A stretch of DNA of 37,661 nt, taken from assembly GCA_003152995.1 (NCBI GenBank), contig PMBR01000088.1, positions 10,390 through 48,050 on the forward strand, read 5' to 3'. The notes under the pieces were generated by a model. The model ran no database searches. It worked only from the letters and a program-made list of their open reading frames with translations, and had not been told where the DNA came from. Position numbers and translations under genes: made by a program. This DNA is from Chloroflexota bacterium. GTDB taxonomy: Bacteria; Chloroflexota; Limnocylindria; Limnocylindrales; CSP1-4. Below, piece by piece: positions 10,857 to 37,661 of the stretch. Each line of letters opens with the position of its first letter. Within the stretch, counting starts at the first letter, position 1.

Positions 10857-10886
10857 AAAACACCTCCATCGGATTCGACAGAGGTG
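10857..10886 (-). terminator. Intrinsic terminator between the TPP riboswitch and thiN
   Basis: On the minus strand CACCTC (10886-10881) pairs with GAGGTG (10866-10861). Further U-G, U-A, C-G and G-C pairs extend the stem to about 11 pairs with a short AAUC loop. It is followed directly by TTTTCTT. It lies only a few bases downstream of the aptamer, so it is the likely expression platform: TPP binding would favour termination before thiN. Confidence 0.8.
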
Positions 10887-10892
10887 CTCGGT

Positions 10893-10986
10893 GCTTGACT
10901 CCCTTCGCCGGCATGATCCGGATCAGGTTCCAAGGGTCTGTGGATCTAGCTCCACACTCTCAGCGCCGCCCCGGCGCTCCCCTGTC
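10893..10986 (-). ncRNA. TPP riboswitch (THI element)
   Basis: The minus strand reads CAGGGGAGCGCC, then the conserved CTGAGAG (10963-10957), then GACCCTTGGAACCTGATC, CGGATCATGCCGGCG and AAGGGAGTC. These are the hallmark pieces of the thiamine pyrophosphate aptamer in the right order: the pyrimidine-sensing CUGAGA loop and the pyrophosphate-sensing helix pair. It lies ~125 bases upstream of thiN, heads the thiN-ykoE-ykoD-ykoC operon and is followed by an intrinsic terminator. Confidence 0.97.
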
Positions 10987-11005
10987 TGTGTTCAGTTGTC
11001 GGTCG

Positions 11006-25687: not shown

Positions 25688-27151
25688 TTACCAGCGCGGG
25701 GCGATCTGGCGGTCCAGTAGCTCGCTCGGCCAGATGCGCGGGCGGATCTGGCAGGCGTGGCCGTCGCGGACGGCGACTTCAGCGGCGGTGGGGTGGGACA
25801 GGAAGAACGGCATCGACTCGGTGAAGCCGTAGGCGCCCGCGTCCAGCACGGCGATGAGATCGCCGACCTGCGGCCGCGGCAACTCGGCCCGCAACGTGAA
25901 GACGTCGATGCCGGTGCAGAGCGGACCCGCGACCAAGGTCGGAACTCGGTCGCGCGAGTCCGCGTCCGGCGCGAGGACCGCCAGGCGCTGCTCCTGCCGC
26001 ACGAGCGCGGTCCGGACCAGGTGGTTGATGCCGCCGTCGAGGATCGCGACCGGCGCCGCGTCGGTGCCCTTGACGTCCACGACCCGGGCCACGTACGCGC
26101 CCGCGGGACCAACCAGGAACCGGCCCGGTTCGAGGAGCACTTCCATCTCGCGCAGGGCGGGATCCCGGTCCCAGCGAGCGCGCAACTTCTGCAGCCGAGC
26201 GCCCAGCAGAGCCAGGTCCAGGGGCGGCTCGCCGCCGGCGTAGGGGATCCCCAGGCCGCCGCCAGCGTCGACGAGACGGAGTGGAACGCCCGCCTCCGCG
26301 GCCACCCCCTTGCCAATCGCCACGAGCTCCGCAATGTGATCCGCGATCCGGTTCGCGTCGAGCACGTTGGACGCGCCGAAGGCATGGACGCCCAGCAGCT
26401 CCAGGTTCGGCGATCTGACCACGGCCGAAGCCGCTTCCTTGAGCACCGGCAGCGGCATGCCGAACTTGCCTTCGGCGCCGCCGATGAGGCGGACGCCCTC
26501 GAACTTTGCGTCGTCGGCGACGGCGAGGCGCAGCAGAATCGGCTGGCGGCGACGCAGCCTTGCGGAGATGGCGTCGAGGCGGTGCAGCTCCCCGACCGAC
26601 TCCACCGTCACGGCCCCGATCCCGGCGGTGACTGCGGCAGCCAGCTCCTCGTCGCGCTTTCCGGGACCCGTCATCGCGATCGTGACTGGGGCGAAGCCGG
26701 CTCGCAGCACCGCCTCGAGCTCTCCGCCGGAGGCGATGTCCGCGCCGATGCAGCAGCCGGCGACGTGGGCCAAAACGCCCAGCGCGGGATTGCTCTTGAC
26801 GGCGAACGCCAGCCGGAAGCCGAAAGGCAGGACGGCGCCCAGGGCGTCGATGCGGCGACCGACCAGCTCCAGGTCGTAGACGTAGAATGGCGTGCCGAAA
26901 TCGGTCGCCAGCGCGTTCGGCACTACGCCGGCCAGCCGGCCGTTTCGAAGCAGGCCGTCGATCGAGGGCGCTGCCGGTTCGACCGCGGGCTCGACCGCCG
27001 TTTCGACCGCAGGCTCGACCGCCCGGGCTGCCGCCGGTTCGACCGCAGGCTCGACCGCCCGGGCTGCCGCCGGTTCGACCGCCGTTTCGACCGCCCGGGC
27101 TGCCGCCGGTTCGACCGGCTGGCCTTCGATGGCTGCCTCATTCGAAGTCAT
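25688..27151 (-). CDS. lysA: Diaminopimelate decarboxylase-type PLP enzyme
   Basis: A 487-residue fold-type III PLP decarboxylase, expected to convert meso-diaminopimelate to lysine as the last pathway step. Motifs: FAVKSNP with PLP-binding Lys119, IASGGELEAVL, DAGGGLGIPY, LLEPGRFLVGPAGAY, LDGGINHLVRTAL and LDAGAYGFTESMPFFLSHPT. The Cys motif reads GPLCTGIDVF; canonical LysA has CESxD, while some siderophore- and butirosin-type decarboxylases have CTxxD, so the exact substrate is less certain than the family. Residues ~11-62 are an unusual AVEPA-repeat extension absent from normal LysA. ATG at 27151 overlaps the dapD stop (ATGA). Being last in a dap operon supports a lysine role. Confidence 0.8.
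   Translation of the reverse strand: MTSNEAAIEGQPVEPAAARAVETAVEPAAARAVEPAVEPAAARAVEPAVETAVEPAVEPAAPSIDGLLRNGRLAGVVPNALATDFGTPFYVYDLELVGRRIDALGAVLPFGFRLAFAVKSNPALGVLAHVAGCCIGADIASGGELEAVLRAGFAPVTIAMTGPGKRDEELAAAVTAGIGAVTVESVGELHRLDAISARLRRRQPILLRLAVADDAKFEGVRLIGGAEGKFGMPLPVLKEAASAVVRSPNLELLGVHAFGASNVLDANRIADHIAELVAIGKGVAAEAGVPLRLVDAGGGLGIPYAGGEPPLDLALLGARLQKLRARWDRDPALREMEVLLEPGRFLVGPAGAYVARVVDVKGTDAAPVAILDGGINHLVRTALVRQEQRLAVLAPDADSRDRVPTLVAGPLCTGIDVFTLRAELPRPQVGDLIAVLDAGAYGFTESMPFFLSHPTAAEVAVRDGHACQIRPRIWPSELLDRQIAPRW
26975..27117. repeat. In-frame tandem repeats encoding the lysA N-terminal extension
   Basis: Repeats built from GGTTCGACCGC and GGCTCGACCGCC, with a 36-base higher unit occurring about three times. 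They encode the AVEPAAAR-type tail at the start of LysA. The GTTCRACCGC core is shared with the linker repeats of ykoD (8591-8662). Confidence 0.85.
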
Positions 27152-27957
27152 CGCAGCGCCTCCTCGAGTGCGACGCGCGCGTCGGTCCGATCGTCGCGGT
27201 ATTTGACTATGACCGTGGCCGAGAGCCCGATGCCGTTGGCTTGCGCGAACTCGCCGCGGGCCTGCCGTACGCCGGGCGCCACGACCGCGCCGGCGGGGAC
27301 GACAAGCGGCTCCTCCAGTGTCCCGACCAGGATGCGGTCGTGGACCAGGTCGTAGAGGCGACTCGTGCCGGTCAGGATGACGCCGGCGGCGATGACGGCT
27401 CCGCGTTTCACGAGCACGCCATCGAGCAGCGCCGACTGGGCGCCGACGAAGACCTCGTCCTCGACGATGACCGGCCGGCGGCCCGCCGGCTCCAGCACGC
27501 CGCCGATCTGGACCGCGGCCGAGAGATGGACGCGCGACCCGATCTGGGCGCACGAGCCGACCAGGACGTGCGAGTCGACCATCGTTCCTTCGCCGACCCA
27601 CGCGCCGACATTGATGTACGAGGGCGGCATGATCGTCACGCCGGGCGCGAGATACACGCCACCCCGGACCGTGGTTCCGCCGGGGACGACCCGCCACGGC
27701 TTGCCGGCCGCCAGCGCGGCTTGGGCCTCCACCGAGTCGAGCAGATCCTTCACCGGCAGCCCGACGCGGTCGCGGAACTGAAACGCGCCGTCGAGGTTCC
27801 ACGTCCGGGTCTCGCGGTCGGCGAAGAGCCCGAGAATCGCCGACTGGACGGCCGAATCGACGCGCCAGCCGCCCGGAGCATCCGGATCGGGGTGTGCGGC
27901 GCGGATTCGGCCGGAGTCGAGGTCGGCGAGGATGTCGGCTGGGGTCTTGTCGTTCAC
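27148..27957 (-). CDS. dapD: Tetrahydrodipicolinate N-succinyltransferase
   Basis: A 269-residue left-handed beta-helix acyltransferase that succinylates tetrahydrodipicolinate with succinyl-CoA in the succinylase branch of lysine/DAP synthesis. The hexapeptide repeats are visible from residue ~95 (VRGGVYLAPGVTIMPPSYIN, VGAWVGEGTMVDSHVLVGSC), followed by the DapD-typical AAVQIGGVLEPAGRRPVIVE and GVILTGTSRLYDL. GTG at 27957 is the only start in frame near the domain; no strong ribosome-binding site is seen and the gap after dapA is 43 bases, so reinitiation is possible. The succinyl route also needs DapC and DapE, which are not in this window. Confidence 0.93.
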   Translation of the reverse strand: MNDKTPADILADLDSGRIRAAHPDPDAPGGWRVDSAVQSAILGLFADRETRTWNLDGAFQFRDRVGLPVKDLLDSVEAQAALAAGKPWRVVPGGTTVRGGVYLAPGVTIMPPSYINVGAWVGEGTMVDSHVLVGSCAQIGSRVHLSAAVQIGGVLEPAGRRPVIVEDEVFVGAQSALLDGVLVKRGAVIAAGVILTGTSRLYDLVHDRILVGTLEEPLVVPAGAVVAPGVRQARGEFAQANGIGLSATVIVKYRDDRTDARVALEEALR

Positions 27958-28000: not shown

Positions 28001-29059
28001 TCACGCGTGGGCCGTCGCTGTGGCCTGGACGATGGCCCGGGTCCGCGCCGAACTCCTCGTCATGGACCGGGCCGCGGATCGCCGCCCGCCGCCGCCCGCC
28101 GCGTCGGCCGATCCCTCGTCGGCCGATCCCTCGTCGGCCGTCCCGTCGAGCTCCATCGCGCCGGTCGCCTCGAGGACCAGGCGCAACCGGGCCCGATACG
28201 ACTCCTCGAGCGGCAGGAGCGGCAGCCGGACCATGTCGGACGACAGGCCCATCAGCGAGAGCGCGGCCTTTACCGGGACCGGGTTCGGCCCGCCGACGAA
28301 GTTGGCTTTCATGAGCGGCAGCCATCGCTCGTGGATCCGGCGCGCGGTATCCCAGTCGGCCGCGAATGCGGCGTCGCACATCTCGGCCATCTGGCCGGGG
28401 ATCTCGTTTGAGCAGGTGCAGATGACGCCGTCGCCGCCCATGGCCAGCATCGGCATGGTCCAGGCGTCGTCGCCGGCGAGAACCGAGAAGTCGGCCGGTC
28501 GCTCGCTCAGGATGGTCGCGATCTGATCCATGTTGGCCGAGGCCTCCTTGACGGCCACGATCCGCGGATGCTCGGCCAGTCGCAGGAGCGTGGCGGCCTC
28601 GACGTTGACCCCGGTTCGGCCGGGCACGTTGTAGACGATGATCGGCAGATCGCCTTCCTCGGCGACCGCACGGAAGTGCGCCTCCAGCATCCGCTGGTCG
28701 GGCTTGTTGTAGTACGGGGCGACGACGAGGGCGGCGTCGACGCCCATTGCGGCCGCGCGGCGGGTCGATCGGATCGCGGTCGCGGTGCTGTTGGAGCCGG
28801 TCCCGGCGATGACCCGGAGGCGGTCGCGGCTCGGGCGCTCGGCGGCGACTTCGAGCGTGGTCGCGATCACCCACTCGTCTTCTTCATGGCTGAGTGTCGG
28901 CGTCTCGCCGGTCGTTCCGCAGGCCACCAGGCCGTGGATGGCGGAATCGATCTGGCGGCGGACCAGGGCCCGGAAGGTCTCCTCGTCGATCGAGCCGTCG
29001 GCTCGGAATGGCGTGACGAGGGCCGTGAAGGCCCCCCTGAGCATGCGGCCGGCTGGCAT
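28001..29059 (-). CDS. dapA: 4-hydroxy-tetrahydrodipicolinate synthase
   Basis: A 352-residue aldolase that condenses pyruvate and aspartate semialdehyde, the first committed lysine step. Conserved parts: ACGTTGETPTLSHEED (residues 46-61), Tyr143 in YNVPGRTGVN, and Schiff-base Lys171 in VAVKEASANMDQ. ATG at 29059 has AAGGAG 7 bases upstream; the upstream open frame is off-family. The usual length is ~295 residues; this one has an extra ~50-residue disordered, Ala/Ser/Arg-rich tail with repeated DEGSA encoded by 15-bp repeats. Enzymes of this fold in the NAL superfamily can act on other substrates, but the dapB-dapA-dapD-lysA order makes DapA the best call. Confidence 0.93.
   Translation of the reverse strand: MPAGRMLRGAFTALVTPFRADGSIDEETFRALVRRQIDSAIHGLVACGTTGETPTLSHEEDEWVIATTLEVAAERPSRDRLRVIAGTGSNSTATAIRSTRRAAAMGVDAALVVAPYYNKPDQRMLEAHFRAVAEEGDLPIIVYNVPGRTGVNVEAATLLRLAEHPRIVAVKEASANMDQIATILSERPADFSVLAGDDAWTMPMLAMGGDGVICTCSNEIPGQMAEMCDAAFAADWDTARRIHERWLPLMKANFVGGPNPVPVKAALSLMGLSSDMVRLPLLPLEESYRARLRLVLEATGAMELDGTADEGSADEGSADAAGGGGRRSAARSMTRSSARTRAIVQATATAHA
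28103..28140. repeat. Short tandem repeats in the dapA tail
   Basis: A 15-base unit GTCGGCCGATCCCTC occurs twice, with a partial third copy, encoding DEGSADEGSAD in the C-terminal tail of DapA. Confidence 0.85.
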
Positions 29060-29115: not shown

Positions 29116-29919
29116 TCAGGAAGCTGAGGCCGAAGCTCCGACGGCTCCGGCCGGCCGCTTGCCGACGGCCTCGATCATCGAGTCGATGACTTCGTCGAAT
29201 GGGTGGAAGCCGGGGGCTCTGGGCCCGGCCAGGAGCCACTCGGCGGCGGTGACGGCGCCGGCTGCGTAGGCCGACCGATCTCGCGCGGTCAAGCGCATCT
29301 CCAGGCTCTCACCGGGAGCGTCGAAGCCGACGAGGTGCATGCCCGGGGCCGCCCCGGCTCGAATGACGGCCACGTCCAGCTCCTCCGGCGCGGGGGCGCC
29401 GTGGGCCATGGGCTGGGCGACACGCGTCTTGCGAGGGTGGGCGGCGATGAGGCGCCGCGACAGCTCGATGGCGGTCCCGGACGGCCGGTCGGCCTTGGTG
29501 CGGCGGTGCCACTCCACGAGATAAGGGTCGTACTCGGCGAACGGGCCGAAGAGACGGGCCGCATCCTCCACGAGACGGGCGAAGAGCATGACGCCCAGGC
29601 TGAAGCTGGCCGATGCCACCGCGGTCGCCGCGCAATCGATGAGCAGTTCGTCGACTTCCCGGCGGTCGTTCGCCCAGTTCGTCGTACCGATGACGAAGCT
29701 TCGGACTCCGCCTGCCAGGGCGGCGCGGACGTTCGGCAGGACGGCGTCGCCCTGGCTGAATTCGAAGAGGATCTCGGCGCCCAGGAACCGGCCGGGTTCG
29801 TGGCCGGCGACCGGGTCGGCGGGCATCCCGAGGATTGCCGCAGGCGGTATGCCGCGGCCGGCGAGCGCGGCTGCGACCGCCCGGCCCATTCCGCCATCCC
29901 CGGCGACGATGCTCAACAT
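29116..29919 (-). CDS. dapB: 4-hydroxy-tetrahydrodipicolinate reductase
   Basis: A 267-residue NAD(P)H-dependent reductase, the second step of the DAP pathway. Motifs: GDGGMGRAVAAAL (residues 7-19, nucleotide binding), FEFSQGDAV, GTTNW, SASFSLGVMLF, and EWHRRTKADRPSGTA with the catalytic His138/Lys142 region. The canonical E-x-H-H is E-W-H-R here. ATG at 29919 has GGAGG about 8 bases upstream. It is the first structural gene of the lysine operon, following a leader peptide and terminator. The C-terminal ~15 residues are an Ala/Ser-rich variable tail. A 56-base gap precedes dapA. Confidence 0.93.
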   Translation of the reverse strand: MLSIVAGDGGMGRAVAAALAGRGIPPAAILGMPADPVAGHEPGRFLGAEILFEFSQGDAVLPNVRAALAGGVRSFVIGTTNWANDRREVDELLIDCAATAVASASFSLGVMLFARLVEDAARLFGPFAEYDPYLVEWHRRTKADRPSGTAIELSRRLIAAHPRKTRVAQPMAHGAPAPEELDVAVIRAGAAPGMHLVGFDAPGESLEMRLTARDRSAYAAGAVTAAEWLLAGPRAPGFHPFDEVIDSMIEAVGKRPAGAVGASASAS

Positions 29920-29949
29920 TCCGTGACCTCCGTGTGGATCCCCTCGGAC

Positions 29950-29988
29950 AAACAGAAAGGCCGCGCCACCTGCCCCGGTGTCGCGGCC
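29950..29988 (-). terminator. Attenuator terminator in the dapB leader
   Basis: On the minus strand GGCCGCG-A-CACC (29988-29977) pairs with GGTG-G-CGCGGCC (29970-29959), a ~11-bp stem with one mismatch and a GGGGCA loop. It is followed at once by TTTCTGTTT. It lies about 40 bases upstream of dapB and downstream of the lysine-rich leader peptide, so it would stop transcription before the operon unless disrupted. Confidence 0.75.
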
Positions 29989-29991
29989 CCT

Positions 29992-30058
29992 GGAGCCTTG
30001 CCCCGGCTCCGCGGTTCTGTGCGAACGCCGCCGAGCTAGGGCCGAGCCTCGCGGCGGG
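29992..30058 (-). promoter_or_regulatory. Additional leader hairpins upstream of the dapB terminator
   Basis: Two further stems are seen on the minus strand. One pairs codons 17-19 of the leader peptide (CGCCGCGAG) with CTCGGCGGCG just after its stop codon, spanning about 30026-30055. The other is GGAGCC-GGGGCAA-GGCTCC (30010-29992). The loop of the second repeats the GGGGCA of the terminator loop. The bases GCGGCCCC near 30055-30063 are fully complementary to GGGGCCGC in the terminator's 5' side. Confidence 0.6.
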
Positions 30059-30104
30059 GCCGCCAGAACTTGGCCTTGGGCTTGGCGAGCGTCAGAAGGA
30101 TCAT
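30036..30104 (-). CDS. Lysine-rich leader peptide of the dap operon
   Basis: A 22-codon open frame, ATG at 30104 and TAG at 30036-30038. It begins MILLTLAKPKAKFW and has three AAG lysine codons at positions 8, 10 and 12. Lysine is rare in this GC-rich genome, so three in five codons just upstream of a lysine biosynthesis operon is striking. The start is only ~3 bases after the predicted transcription start, so the peptide is probably translated from a leaderless mRNA; no Shine-Dalgarno is present. By analogy to trp/his/leu leaders it should sense charged tRNA-Lys. It is too short to expect homologs in protein databases; expression is inferred from the surrounding signals. Confidence 0.7.
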   Translation of the reverse strand: MILLTLAKPKAKFWRPRREARP

Positions 30105-30113
30105 TGCCGGCTG

Positions 30114-30142
30114 ATTATGCACTATCCGGTGGCCGGGCGCAA
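30114..30142 (-). promoter_or_regulatory. Promoter of the lysine operon
   Basis: On the minus strand TTGCGC (30142-30137), a 17-base spacer and CATAAT (30119-30114). Transcription would start near 30107, three bases before the leader peptide ATG. Confidence 0.65.
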
Positions 30143-30155
30143 CCGTTCCGCGACA

Positions 30156-30184
30156 TATGCAGGATGCATAGGCACCGTATGCAT
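30156..30184. promoter_or_regulatory. Candidate operator upstream of the lysine promoter
   Basis: Three half sites TATGCA (30156-30161), ATGCATA (30164-30170) and TATGCAT (30178-30184). The last two are a perfect 7-bp inverted repeat with a 7-base spacer. The AT-rich block is centred about 60-70 bases upstream of the predicted start, where an activator would sit. Confidence 0.5.
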
Positions 30185-30260
30185 CAGGGTATACAGTGCG
30201 GATATGGCGTGAGTGGCGGCGCGGAGCGGCGGAGTGGCGGCGCCGGGATCGGCCGCCCGG

Positions 30261-30405
30261 TTTCTGCAAGATGTGCGCCGAGAGGGCGCTATGCGCAAGA
30301 CAGGCGCCCGAGGTGCGGGATTTGGCGCCTGCCGTCGTGGCGGCGTCGGGCGCGCGCCGGTCGCGCGCCCTGAATAGCGCCCTGGGAATGGGAATCTTGC
30401 AGAAA
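30261..30405. mobile_element. Palindromic intergenic element, copy A (MITE/REP-like)
   Basis: Outer arms TTTCTGCAAGAT (30261-30272) and ATCTTGCAGAAA (30394-30405) are perfect complements. Inner arms AGGGCGCTAT (30283-30292) and ATAGCGCCCT (30374-30383) are also perfect. The arms are separated by 10 bases on the left and 10 on the right. A third inverted pair CAGGCGCC/GGCGCCTG (30301-30308, 30324-30331) lies within. No reading frame of note and no obvious target-site duplication. Confidence 0.6.
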
Positions 30406-35222: not shown

Positions 35223-36479
35223 CTACTTGAGCGCTTCCGCCAGGAGGGTCGCCAGCTGGTCCCACTCCACCAGGAAGGCGTCGTGGCCCTTCGTCGAGCG
35301 GATCTCGCGGTAGGCGGCATCCATGCCGGCGGCCGTGGCGGCCTTGACCATCTCACGGACCTGGGTCGTGCCGTACAGGATGTCGCCCTCGACTCCGACG
35401 CCGGTGAGCCGCGTCCCGTAGGCGGCGAGACGCCGCAGCGCGGCCACGGCGCCGCCGCGGTCGCGACCGATGTCATGCGTGTCCATGGCTCGGACGAGCG
35501 TTCGGTACGTGTCCTCGTCGAAGCGATCGAGCAGCTTTCGACCCTGGTGGCGCAGGTAGCTGACCACCGAAGGCGAGCCATCAGCCTCTGTTCGACCGGC
35601 GAAGCGTTGCTCGAAGTCGACCTCGCTGCGATACGTCGTCATCGCCAGCTGGCGGGCCAGATCCAGTCCCTCCGGACCGAGCTTGTCCACCATTTCCAGC
35701 TGAATCGCGTCCCAGGCGACCGCGAGCTGCCCGATCCGCGTCGTGGCCGCGATCGGTACGACACGGCTGATCTCGCCCGGCCGCTCGAGCGCCACTTCCA
35801 GGGCGACCATGCCGCCGAGGGACCCGCCCACCGCCAGCGCGAGCTTGCCGATCCCCAGCGCGTCGAGGAGTCGCCACTGGGCCCGGGCCTGATCTCGAAC
35901 CGTGACACGGGGAAAGGCTCGACCGTAGGGCTTGCCGGTCACCGGGTTCCGTGAGATCGGACCGCTGGTGCCGTACCGGCTGCCCAAGAGGTTCATGCAG
36001 ATGATCCCGAACTTGTCCGTGTCGAGAACCTGGCCGGGGCCGATGAGCGGCGCCCACCAGTCGCCGGCGGCGTCGGCCGAGCCGGTCAGCGCGTGGACGA
36101 CCAGAATCTGGCGCCCTTCGCCAATCGGGACGCCATCGTGGCGGTAGGCCGCGACCAGGTCCGGCAGGATCGCCCCGGACTCCAGAACGAAGCGACCCAG
36201 CCAGCGGGAGACGATTCTTCCGGTCTGAGGGTCGCTCGGATTATCCACGTCGTTCAGGCTACGAAAACCGAAGTCGGCGCGTGCGGTCGAAACGCCGGGA
36301 TCGGCGGGGACGAAGCCCGATCCGGTGCCGCGACCGCTCGCCTTTGGTTCGTGAATGCCGAGCGCGCCGAGCCCCGCGAGGGACCCGGCGCGAGCGATGC
36401 CCGGGTCGGCGACGGGCTCAGAGGGCGCGGGCCGGCCGCGCACCTCCGAGATCCATCGAATTGCCGGGTCCGATTTCAT
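35223..36479 (-). CDS. metX: Homoserine O-acetyltransferase
   Basis: A 418-residue alpha/beta hydrolase-fold acyltransferase that activates homoserine for methionine synthesis. The nucleophile Ser220 is in AVGGSLGGMVALEVAL; the acid Asp366 is in GVEGDILYGTT and His399 in STKGHDAFLVEW. The N-terminal ~85 residues are an extra extension; the family core begins near RFVLESGAILPDLVAAYRHD. ATG at 36479 has GAAGG 8 bases upstream. The preceding gene metY ends 24 bases upstream, so they form a metY-metX operon. Acetyl versus succinyl specificity cannot be fixed by eye; the MetX name is by family. Confidence 0.92.
   Translation of the reverse strand: MKSDPAIRWISEVRGRPAPSEPVADPGIARAGSLAGLGALGIHEPKASGRGTGSGFVPADPGVSTARADFGFRSLNDVDNPSDPQTGRIVSRWLGRFVLESGAILPDLVAAYRHDGVPIGEGRQILVVHALTGSADAAGDWWAPLIGPGQVLDTDKFGIICMNLLGSRYGTSGPISRNPVTGKPYGRAFPRVTVRDQARAQWRLLDALGIGKLALAVGGSLGGMVALEVALERPGEISRVVPIAATTRIGQLAVAWDAIQLEMVDKLGPEGLDLARQLAMTTYRSEVDFEQRFAGRTEADGSPSVVSYLRHQGRKLLDRFDEDTYRTLVRAMDTHDIGRDRGGAVAALRRLAAYGTRLTGVGVEGDILYGTTQVREMVKAATAAGMDAAYREIRSTKGHDAFLVEWDQLATLLAEALK

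Positions 36480-36503: not shown

Positions 36504-37661
<1,158 letters not shown>

Follow-up and report, generated by a model that had tools for sequence, protein, structure and literature searches.

By what mechanism is a cluster of lysine biosynthesis genes controlled when, directly in front of it, a promoter is followed by a short frame with lysine codons and a terminator-like hairpin? This question is raised by the dapB locus of a Chloroflexota contig, of which a stretch of 37,661 nucleotides was analyzed (hereafter the window). The original prediction, made from the letters alone, was that of a likely lysine attenuator, and it is supported by conserved lysine codons, by the terminator, by the lack of any matching Rfam family and by a conserved pairing between the frame and the terminator. 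We estimate the probability at about 85% that charged tRNA-Lys is sensed here by a ribosome-mediated transcription attenuator, in which a ribosome would stall when lysine is short and transcription would otherwise terminate.

The anatomy of the element can be read directly from the window (Table 1). The promoter hexamers are 17 nt apart and the frame of 22 codons has AAG at codons 8, 10 and 12, exactly as originally described. Within the frame a segment, denoted A, runs from the last base of codon 14 to the first base of codon 17 and is the exact complement of segment F, the 5' arm of the predicted terminator; the terminator shares F with the A:F pairing, i.e. antiterminator and terminator are mutually exclusive. 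The terminator and its T-run were likewise confirmed upstream of dapB. They are located between the leader frame and the first gene, the distance to dapB being some 30 nt, and the U-tract is weak in the window. In an alignment of 29 elements of the Met type, the middle hairpin D:E has a counterpart of the form GGGACC..GGTCCC. That two loops share GGGGCA is true of the window but is not conserved, since aligned elements differ in their terminator loop. The lysine gene set had been called complete; the run dapB-dapA-dapD-lysA is indeed present, but the qualification 'complete' is too strong. For the lysA protein, the model of a related decarboxylase (TIGR03099, E 4e-83) scores slightly above TIGR01048 and is likewise below its cut-off.

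Table 1. Features of the lysine locus and of neighbouring genes in the window (positions as in the window).
Feature	Position	Strand	Basis or remark
Leader element, promoter to U-tract	30142-29949	-	direct read of sequence
-35 hexamer TTGCGC	30137..30142	-	sequence
-10 hexamer CATAAT	30114..30119	-	sequence; 9 nt upstream of leader ATG
Leader peptide frame MILLTLAKPKAKFWRPRREARP* (22 codons)	30036..30104	-	sequence; ATG at 30104; probably leaderless by promoter spacing
Control codons AAG-x-AAG-x-AAG (Lys8, Lys10, Lys12)	30069..30083	-	sequence
Segment A GCGGCCCC, antiterminator 5' strand	30056..30063	-	pairs with F
Middle hairpin D:E, GGAGCC-GGGGCAA-GGCTCC	29992..30010	-	sequence
Segment F GGGGCCGC, terminator 5' arm and partner of A	29983..29990	-	pairing analyses
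Intrinsic terminator stem-loop (predicted)	29959..29990	-	fold -26.2 kcal/mol
U-tract TTTCTGTTTG, 3' of terminator stem	29949..29958	-	T-rich tract also aligned across elements
GGAGG ribosome-binding site of dapB	29927..29931	-	sequence
dapB, putative first gene controlled	29116..29919	-	ATG at 29919; TIGR00036 E 4e-30, best model, below its cut-off
dapA (start inferred)	28001..29059	-	TIGR00674 E 2e-93, passes NCBIfam cut-off
dapD	27148..27957	-	PRK11830 (tetrahydrodipicolinate N-succinyltransferase) E 3e-75, passes NCBIfam cut-off
lysA (start inferred)	25688..27151	-	TIGR01048 E 5e-78, below cut-off
metY	36504-37661	-	within window
metX	35223-36479	-	within window; below its NCBIfam cut-offs

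The remark that neither an L-box nor a T-box is present agrees with the Rfam scan of positions 29850-30300, which returned no L-box, T-box or other family up to an E-value of 1; at the leaders of seven further loci there was no match at the gathering score either. Elsewhere in the window, at 10883-10993 (minus strand), a TPP riboswitch is found (RF00059, 72.3 bits).

Conservation in relatives had been proposed as the check on the prediction. Loci were therefore picked by the dapB protein alone, in 61 related genomes that include the window's own. Matches were found in 28 of these, at 29 loci, of which 26 had the dapB start together with upstream sequence; the other three are two fragments that lack upstream sequence (L020, L028) and a weak match that begins at residue 47 (L029). 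A short frame coded for lysine was observed at the same place in all 26, and thus from the genus to the class level (17 loci in the window's genus, 8 in other genera of the family and 1, in G059, in another family of the class), and the terminator is deviant in two of them (L006, L023). The remaining 24 leaders were used to build a covariance model, R1, which matched in 97 of the 177 genomes of the class at an E-value of 0.05, a loose limit that admits chance and antisense hits. At loci other than dapB, R1 gave a second tier of matches with the same scaffold, in which Met-Cys-Met replaces the lysines; these elements mostly precede metY, encoding O-acetylhomoserine sulfhydrylase (one representative matches TIGR01326 with E 2e-198). 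A mixed model, R2, was built from 55 elements and matched in 87 of the 177 genomes at an E-value of 0.01; it revealed a third type, in which Cys-x-Cys stands in front of cysE and cysK.

Several choices define these sets. Model hits that lacked the architecture were dropped (L106, L107, L111, L116, L117, L118, L119, L188, L189), and L115, at a contig end, was removed before counting. The wider dapB-type set is biased towards lysine, as R1 itself contains the lysine codons and its hits were parsed with a lysine-codon pattern; seven R1 hits that failed this pattern were restored, and the figure free of such bias is the 26 out of 26 obtained by protein. The script that reads the codon register in a fixed frame misreads five elements (L024, L068, L094, L136, L172), which were re-read separately.

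In all three classes, i.e. Lys, Met and Cys, the short leader frame holds codons for the amino acid to be regulated, and in 150 distinct elements the control codons, a constant distance upstream of segment A (GCGGCCC), track the downstream gene. In dapB elements Lys is found at W-4 in 60 and at W-2 in 63 of 66, while metY elements have Met at these positions in 49 and 50 out of 50. Cys-x-Cys precedes cysE in 11/11 cases, seven in the same register and four shifted by one codon, and relatives of cystathionine beta-synthase/cysK in 2/2. The leader of a sulfite/nitrite-reductase-like gene reads C-V-C-M-C, and C-C-C-C precedes a gene without NCBIfam match, which we take to be DUF4395-like. Met-Cys-Met is present in front of eight OsmC-like genes, some with metY adjoining, and of three of six weakly carbonic-anhydrase-like genes, the other three having variants. 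Such leaders (L180, L074, L181, L190, L065, L097) hint at a role of the presumably DUF4395-like, the OsmC-like and the weakly carbonic-anhydrase-like genes in sulfur amino-acid metabolism. For the Met-x-Met scaffold in front of three threonine synthase genes (L068, L094, L173) we offer no explanation.

All three types occur together in the genome of the window. A Met-Ser-Met leader lies about 330 nt past the window's end (G000:C139:48379-48503), before metY and metX, and a Cys-Leu-Cys leader precedes cysE-cysK on another contig (G000:C37). A metY search in the 61 genomes gave 44 matches, 26 of which show at least 70% identity and have their 5' end present (the others being 14 paralogs of lower identity and 4 fragments); comparing the lists of elements and of metY genes by eye, an element was found just upstream of all 26. 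In G059 a Lys-type and a Met-type leader stand back to back on opposite strands, about 370 nt apart (L084, G059:C5:140093-140752).

This natural codon swap, with Lys, Met and Cys on the same scaffold, we regard as the best evidence that the element would act as an attenuator. It also bears on whether the RNA could bind lysine as a riboswitch of a new kind, with the frame being incidental. High sequence conservation and alternative helices are what such an RNA would display, but the codon register follows the downstream pathway, genes for Met and Cys use the same scaffold and Rfam gives no match at an E-value of 1, so that a riboswitch is extremely unlikely. With respect to attenuation, it is quite likely that a single scaffold was copied within one Chloroflexota class and retuned to Lys, Met or Cys by codon swap, giving a modular regulon on leaderless RNAs that would include an attenuator with methionine codons.

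The class concerned we infer to be Limnocylindria. When R2 was run on 400 genomes of the phylum, 30 were matched, 28 of them within this class. The matches outside it (G237 and G513, E about 0.005) were rejected as chance, the contexts of L188 and L189 having no leader-terminator arrangement. The 19 small genomes of a sister family (0.8-1.2 Mb) gave neither a dapB nor an R2 match. The exact core pattern was found on 24 contigs in a named collection, all of them titled Chloroflexi or, once, Anaerolinea sp.; five derive from 'fen' bins and two contigs belong to one bin. Among the genomes searched, the codon-swapped family is thus found in only one class of Chloroflexota.

The pairing of a leader segment near 30055-30063 with the 5' side of the terminator, noticed originally in the window, proved to be conserved with compensatory changes. 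A match of A and F over 8 bp (GU allowed) is present in 51/66 dapB elements (i.e. absent from 15), in 61/66 of the Met group and in 15/15 of the Cys group, and in 0/3 elements before thrC, against 2-7% in controls made by shuffling the regions or by taking 8-mers from elsewhere in the frame (0.05-0.07 for the dapB, Met and Cys groups). Over the 55 mixed elements 93.1% of the A:F cells are paired, against 41-52% when the strands are slid by one to three columns; seven of the nine pairs are never broken and the ninth fails in 29. Changes from CG to UA compensate in 11 elements at column pair 23:116 and in 1 at 22:117; A:F is so conserved that most of its covariation comes from a single column pair. 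Near-invariance of the terminator arm is confined to the part that matches A, where the mean entropy is 0.19 bits, compared with 0.94 in the remainder of the arm. The alternative hairpin that takes up A inside the frame has 93.5% of its cells paired in dapB elements (n=55), with double changes at three pairs; of another pair of alternative helices, P2 versus P3 in the middle region, P3 alone was counted, in Met-type elements.

Is A conserved as RNA or as peptide? WRPCREAR or a close variant is encoded in most dapB-type elements (exceptions include L019, L023, L024 and L026), as would be expected if it were an arrest peptide that senses a small molecule and has the lysines as part of its arrest motif. 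However, when A is read in the WRP frame, it has CGG in 147/150 and CCC in 136/150 elements although synonyms would preserve the peptide, and other residues follow RP in the Met and Cys elements. Moreover, A is retained where the frame over it encodes something else (L024, AARP; L068, PCGP; L172, PAAP), which argues against an arrest peptide and leaves that explanation very unlikely.

The terminator has 97.2% of its cells paired over the 55 mixed elements, with double changes at three pairs. The strong GC stem and T-rich tract are thus conserved, and in elements of dapB, metY and cysE they separate the frame from the gene. Both points speak against frame and pairing controlling translation, Rho-dependent termination or mRNA decay, with the Lys codons still sensing lysine. 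The weak U-tract of the window and the deviant terminators of L006 and L023 would suit such control, as would the leaderless cysteine-codon frames that, according to excerpts of PMC9031893 and PMC1262725, act differently in mycobacteria; on balance we consider it unlikely.

If transcription is attenuated at the terminator, the position of the ribosome should decide whether A is available to F. This was modelled by constrained folding in silico of transcripts cut after F, i.e. before the 3' arm of the terminator exists, in 59/67 dapB-type and 40/49 other elements (56 and 39 distinct sequences); those without a T-run, start or 7-pair stem by the rule used were left out, and the 40 others are mostly Met, with 11 not filed under metY. 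The ribosome footprint was assumed to be that of E. coli, and the outcome depends on this choice. In the window, the predicted probability of A:F is 0.00 in the absence of a ribosome. A ribosome raises it to 0.75 when Lys8 or Lys10 occupies the A site and to 0.16 when Lys12 does; the value is 0 for a ribosome at codon 14 or 17 and 0.62 for one at the stop codon. The fold with a ribosome block at codons 8-12, which had been suggested originally, thus frees A for F at the first two lysines but hardly at the third. The mean values in the dapB type are 0.26 (free), 0.71 (W-4), 0.15 (W-2), 0 (next positions) and 0.62 (stop), and those in the other type 0.61, 0.95, 0.05, 0 and 0.77, respectively, so that stalling at the last control codon would help little; it also counts against the model that Met-type leaders already reach 0.61 in the free state. 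With the front edge of the ribosome placed 9-13 nt past the first A-site base, the W-4 value ranges over 0.66-0.74 (dapB) and 0.94-0.95 (other); at +15 it drops to 0.45 and 0.63. Once the RNA is complete, the terminator prevails whatever the state (0.85-0.87 in the dapB type, 0.88-0.94 in the other), which implies that antitermination can only be kinetic. Since A also becomes free when the ribosome sits at the stop codon, the release of the ribosome must be quick or something else must intervene. In this model the folding fits antitermination induced by stalling at the early control codons, with timing having to decide.

The leader may be translated without a 5' leader of its own. A suitably placed promoter pair (TTGNNN followed at 15-19 nt by a -10-like hexamer that ends 5-11 nt before the leader start) is present in 49/63 dapB-type and 53/70 other elements (102/133), against 0.4% of random positions; 17 of the 150 elements had no start in range or no upstream sequence and were not tallied. 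In the 63 dapB-type elements, which have an in-frame start 32-47 nt before A, there are 58 occurrences of TTGNNN ending 30-34 nt before the leader start, and 39 -10-like hexamers at the 9-nt gap seen in the window. None of the 133 elements has a Shine-Dalgarno-like motif before the leader frame. From this motif's absence and the promoter spacing, rather than a mapped 5' end, it follows that the peptide is probably read from a leaderless mRNA. Upstream of the -35 hexamer, the window has an array of TGCATA/TATGCA boxes (30183-30156, minus strand; about -79, -66 and -57 from the leader start). All 17 dapB leaders of the window's genus have 2-5 such boxes (including one in the -10), and upstream of -45 there are none in 38 of the 49 other dapB leaders and in 83 of the 84 Met/Cys and other leaders; they may serve as operators in a second layer of control that is specific to the genus.

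Taken together, the element could work as follows. RNA polymerase would initiate at or beside the leader ATG and a ribosome would load directly onto the 5' end. Without a ribosome, the stretch of Lys codons would fold with leader sequence 3' of A into one long hairpin that encloses A and keeps it out of the reach of F, so that the terminator would halt transcription ahead of dapB. When lysine is short, the ribosome would pause once one of the early Lys codons occupies its A site, with its front edge just short of A, covering the codon stretch that would otherwise close over A; A could then pair with the emerging F, which would delay the terminator and let the polymerase proceed into dapB-dapA-dapD-lysA. 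Given ample lysine, the ribosome would move over A and mask it, and the terminator would form. The scaffold would be tuned to Met or Cys by a change of the codons that start 8-14 nt before A.

The attenuators of the E. coli type (trp, his, leu, thr and ilv) combine codons for the end product, a terminator, an antiterminator and a decision by ribosome position, and the present element likewise has end-product codons in its leader, a predicted terminator and an antiterminator pairing, with a decision that would depend on the ribosome. In contrast to them, its control amino acid is Lys (or Met or Cys), it is probably leaderless, three amino acids are served by the same scaffold, and the antiterminator strand is part of the frame, where it follows the control codons immediately and pairs with the 5' arm of the terminator. 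As far as we know, it is unusual for attenuators of different operons to be related. The lysine cluster of Thermus thermophilus, which belongs to the alpha-aminoadipate pathway, is controlled by leader-peptide attenuation with a terminator. Lysine genes, leader peptide and terminator are common to both, but in terms of general layout, rather than of compared sequences, the two differ in phylum and in pathway (DAP here); a lysine leader peptide of Thermus was not found in the literature searched.

Part of PMC9413887 describes the his attenuator with leader peptide, terminator, antiterminator and a decision by ribosome position. In other species lysine and methionine genes are controlled by L-box (lysine) and S-box (SAM) riboswitches, according to an excerpt of PMC1262725; here the same types of genes would be regulated by a leader that, in the window, has no Rfam match at an E-value of 1. 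The same excerpt reports no conserved RNA structures before the lysine and methionine operons of Actinobacteria, and that no terminator hairpin is conserved upstream of the cys operons of mycobacteria. Leaderless polycysteine frames in mycobacteria, which respond to cysteine (Canestrari 2020 as cited in PMC9031893), share the leaderless short frame with control codons, whereas in the Chloroflexota family terminator and antiterminator are conserved and versions for Lys and Met exist as well. The trpL attenuator peptide of Sinorhizobium meliloti, which senses tryptophan, is also read from leaderless RNA (part of PMC10117765), a likeness by description and not by sequence; that text further suggests a Thr/Lys-rich leader before an aspartate dehydrogenase gene in Sinorhizobium. 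The literature searched, by titles and starts of abstracts and with few subscription papers, contained no recognisable leader-peptide attenuator of this kind for Lys (DAP pathway) or Met, nor one in Chloroflexota.

The natural codon swap can be viewed as evolution's own experiment, implying that the sensing codons are separable from the switching RNA. It would bring leader-peptide attenuators to the DAP lysine pathway and to methionine codons, for which RNA control by riboswitches is more familiar, and it would do so in uncultured Chloroflexota that are represented in these data only by metagenome-assembled genomes. Such a family makes it possible to test whether specificity is determined by nothing but the control codons, and how the first ribosome is coupled to the polymerase when the leader is leaderless. 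The working principle is the classical one of trp and his, here probably sensing lysine; what appears new are the amino acids, the probably leaderless layout and, above all, the codon-swapped family.
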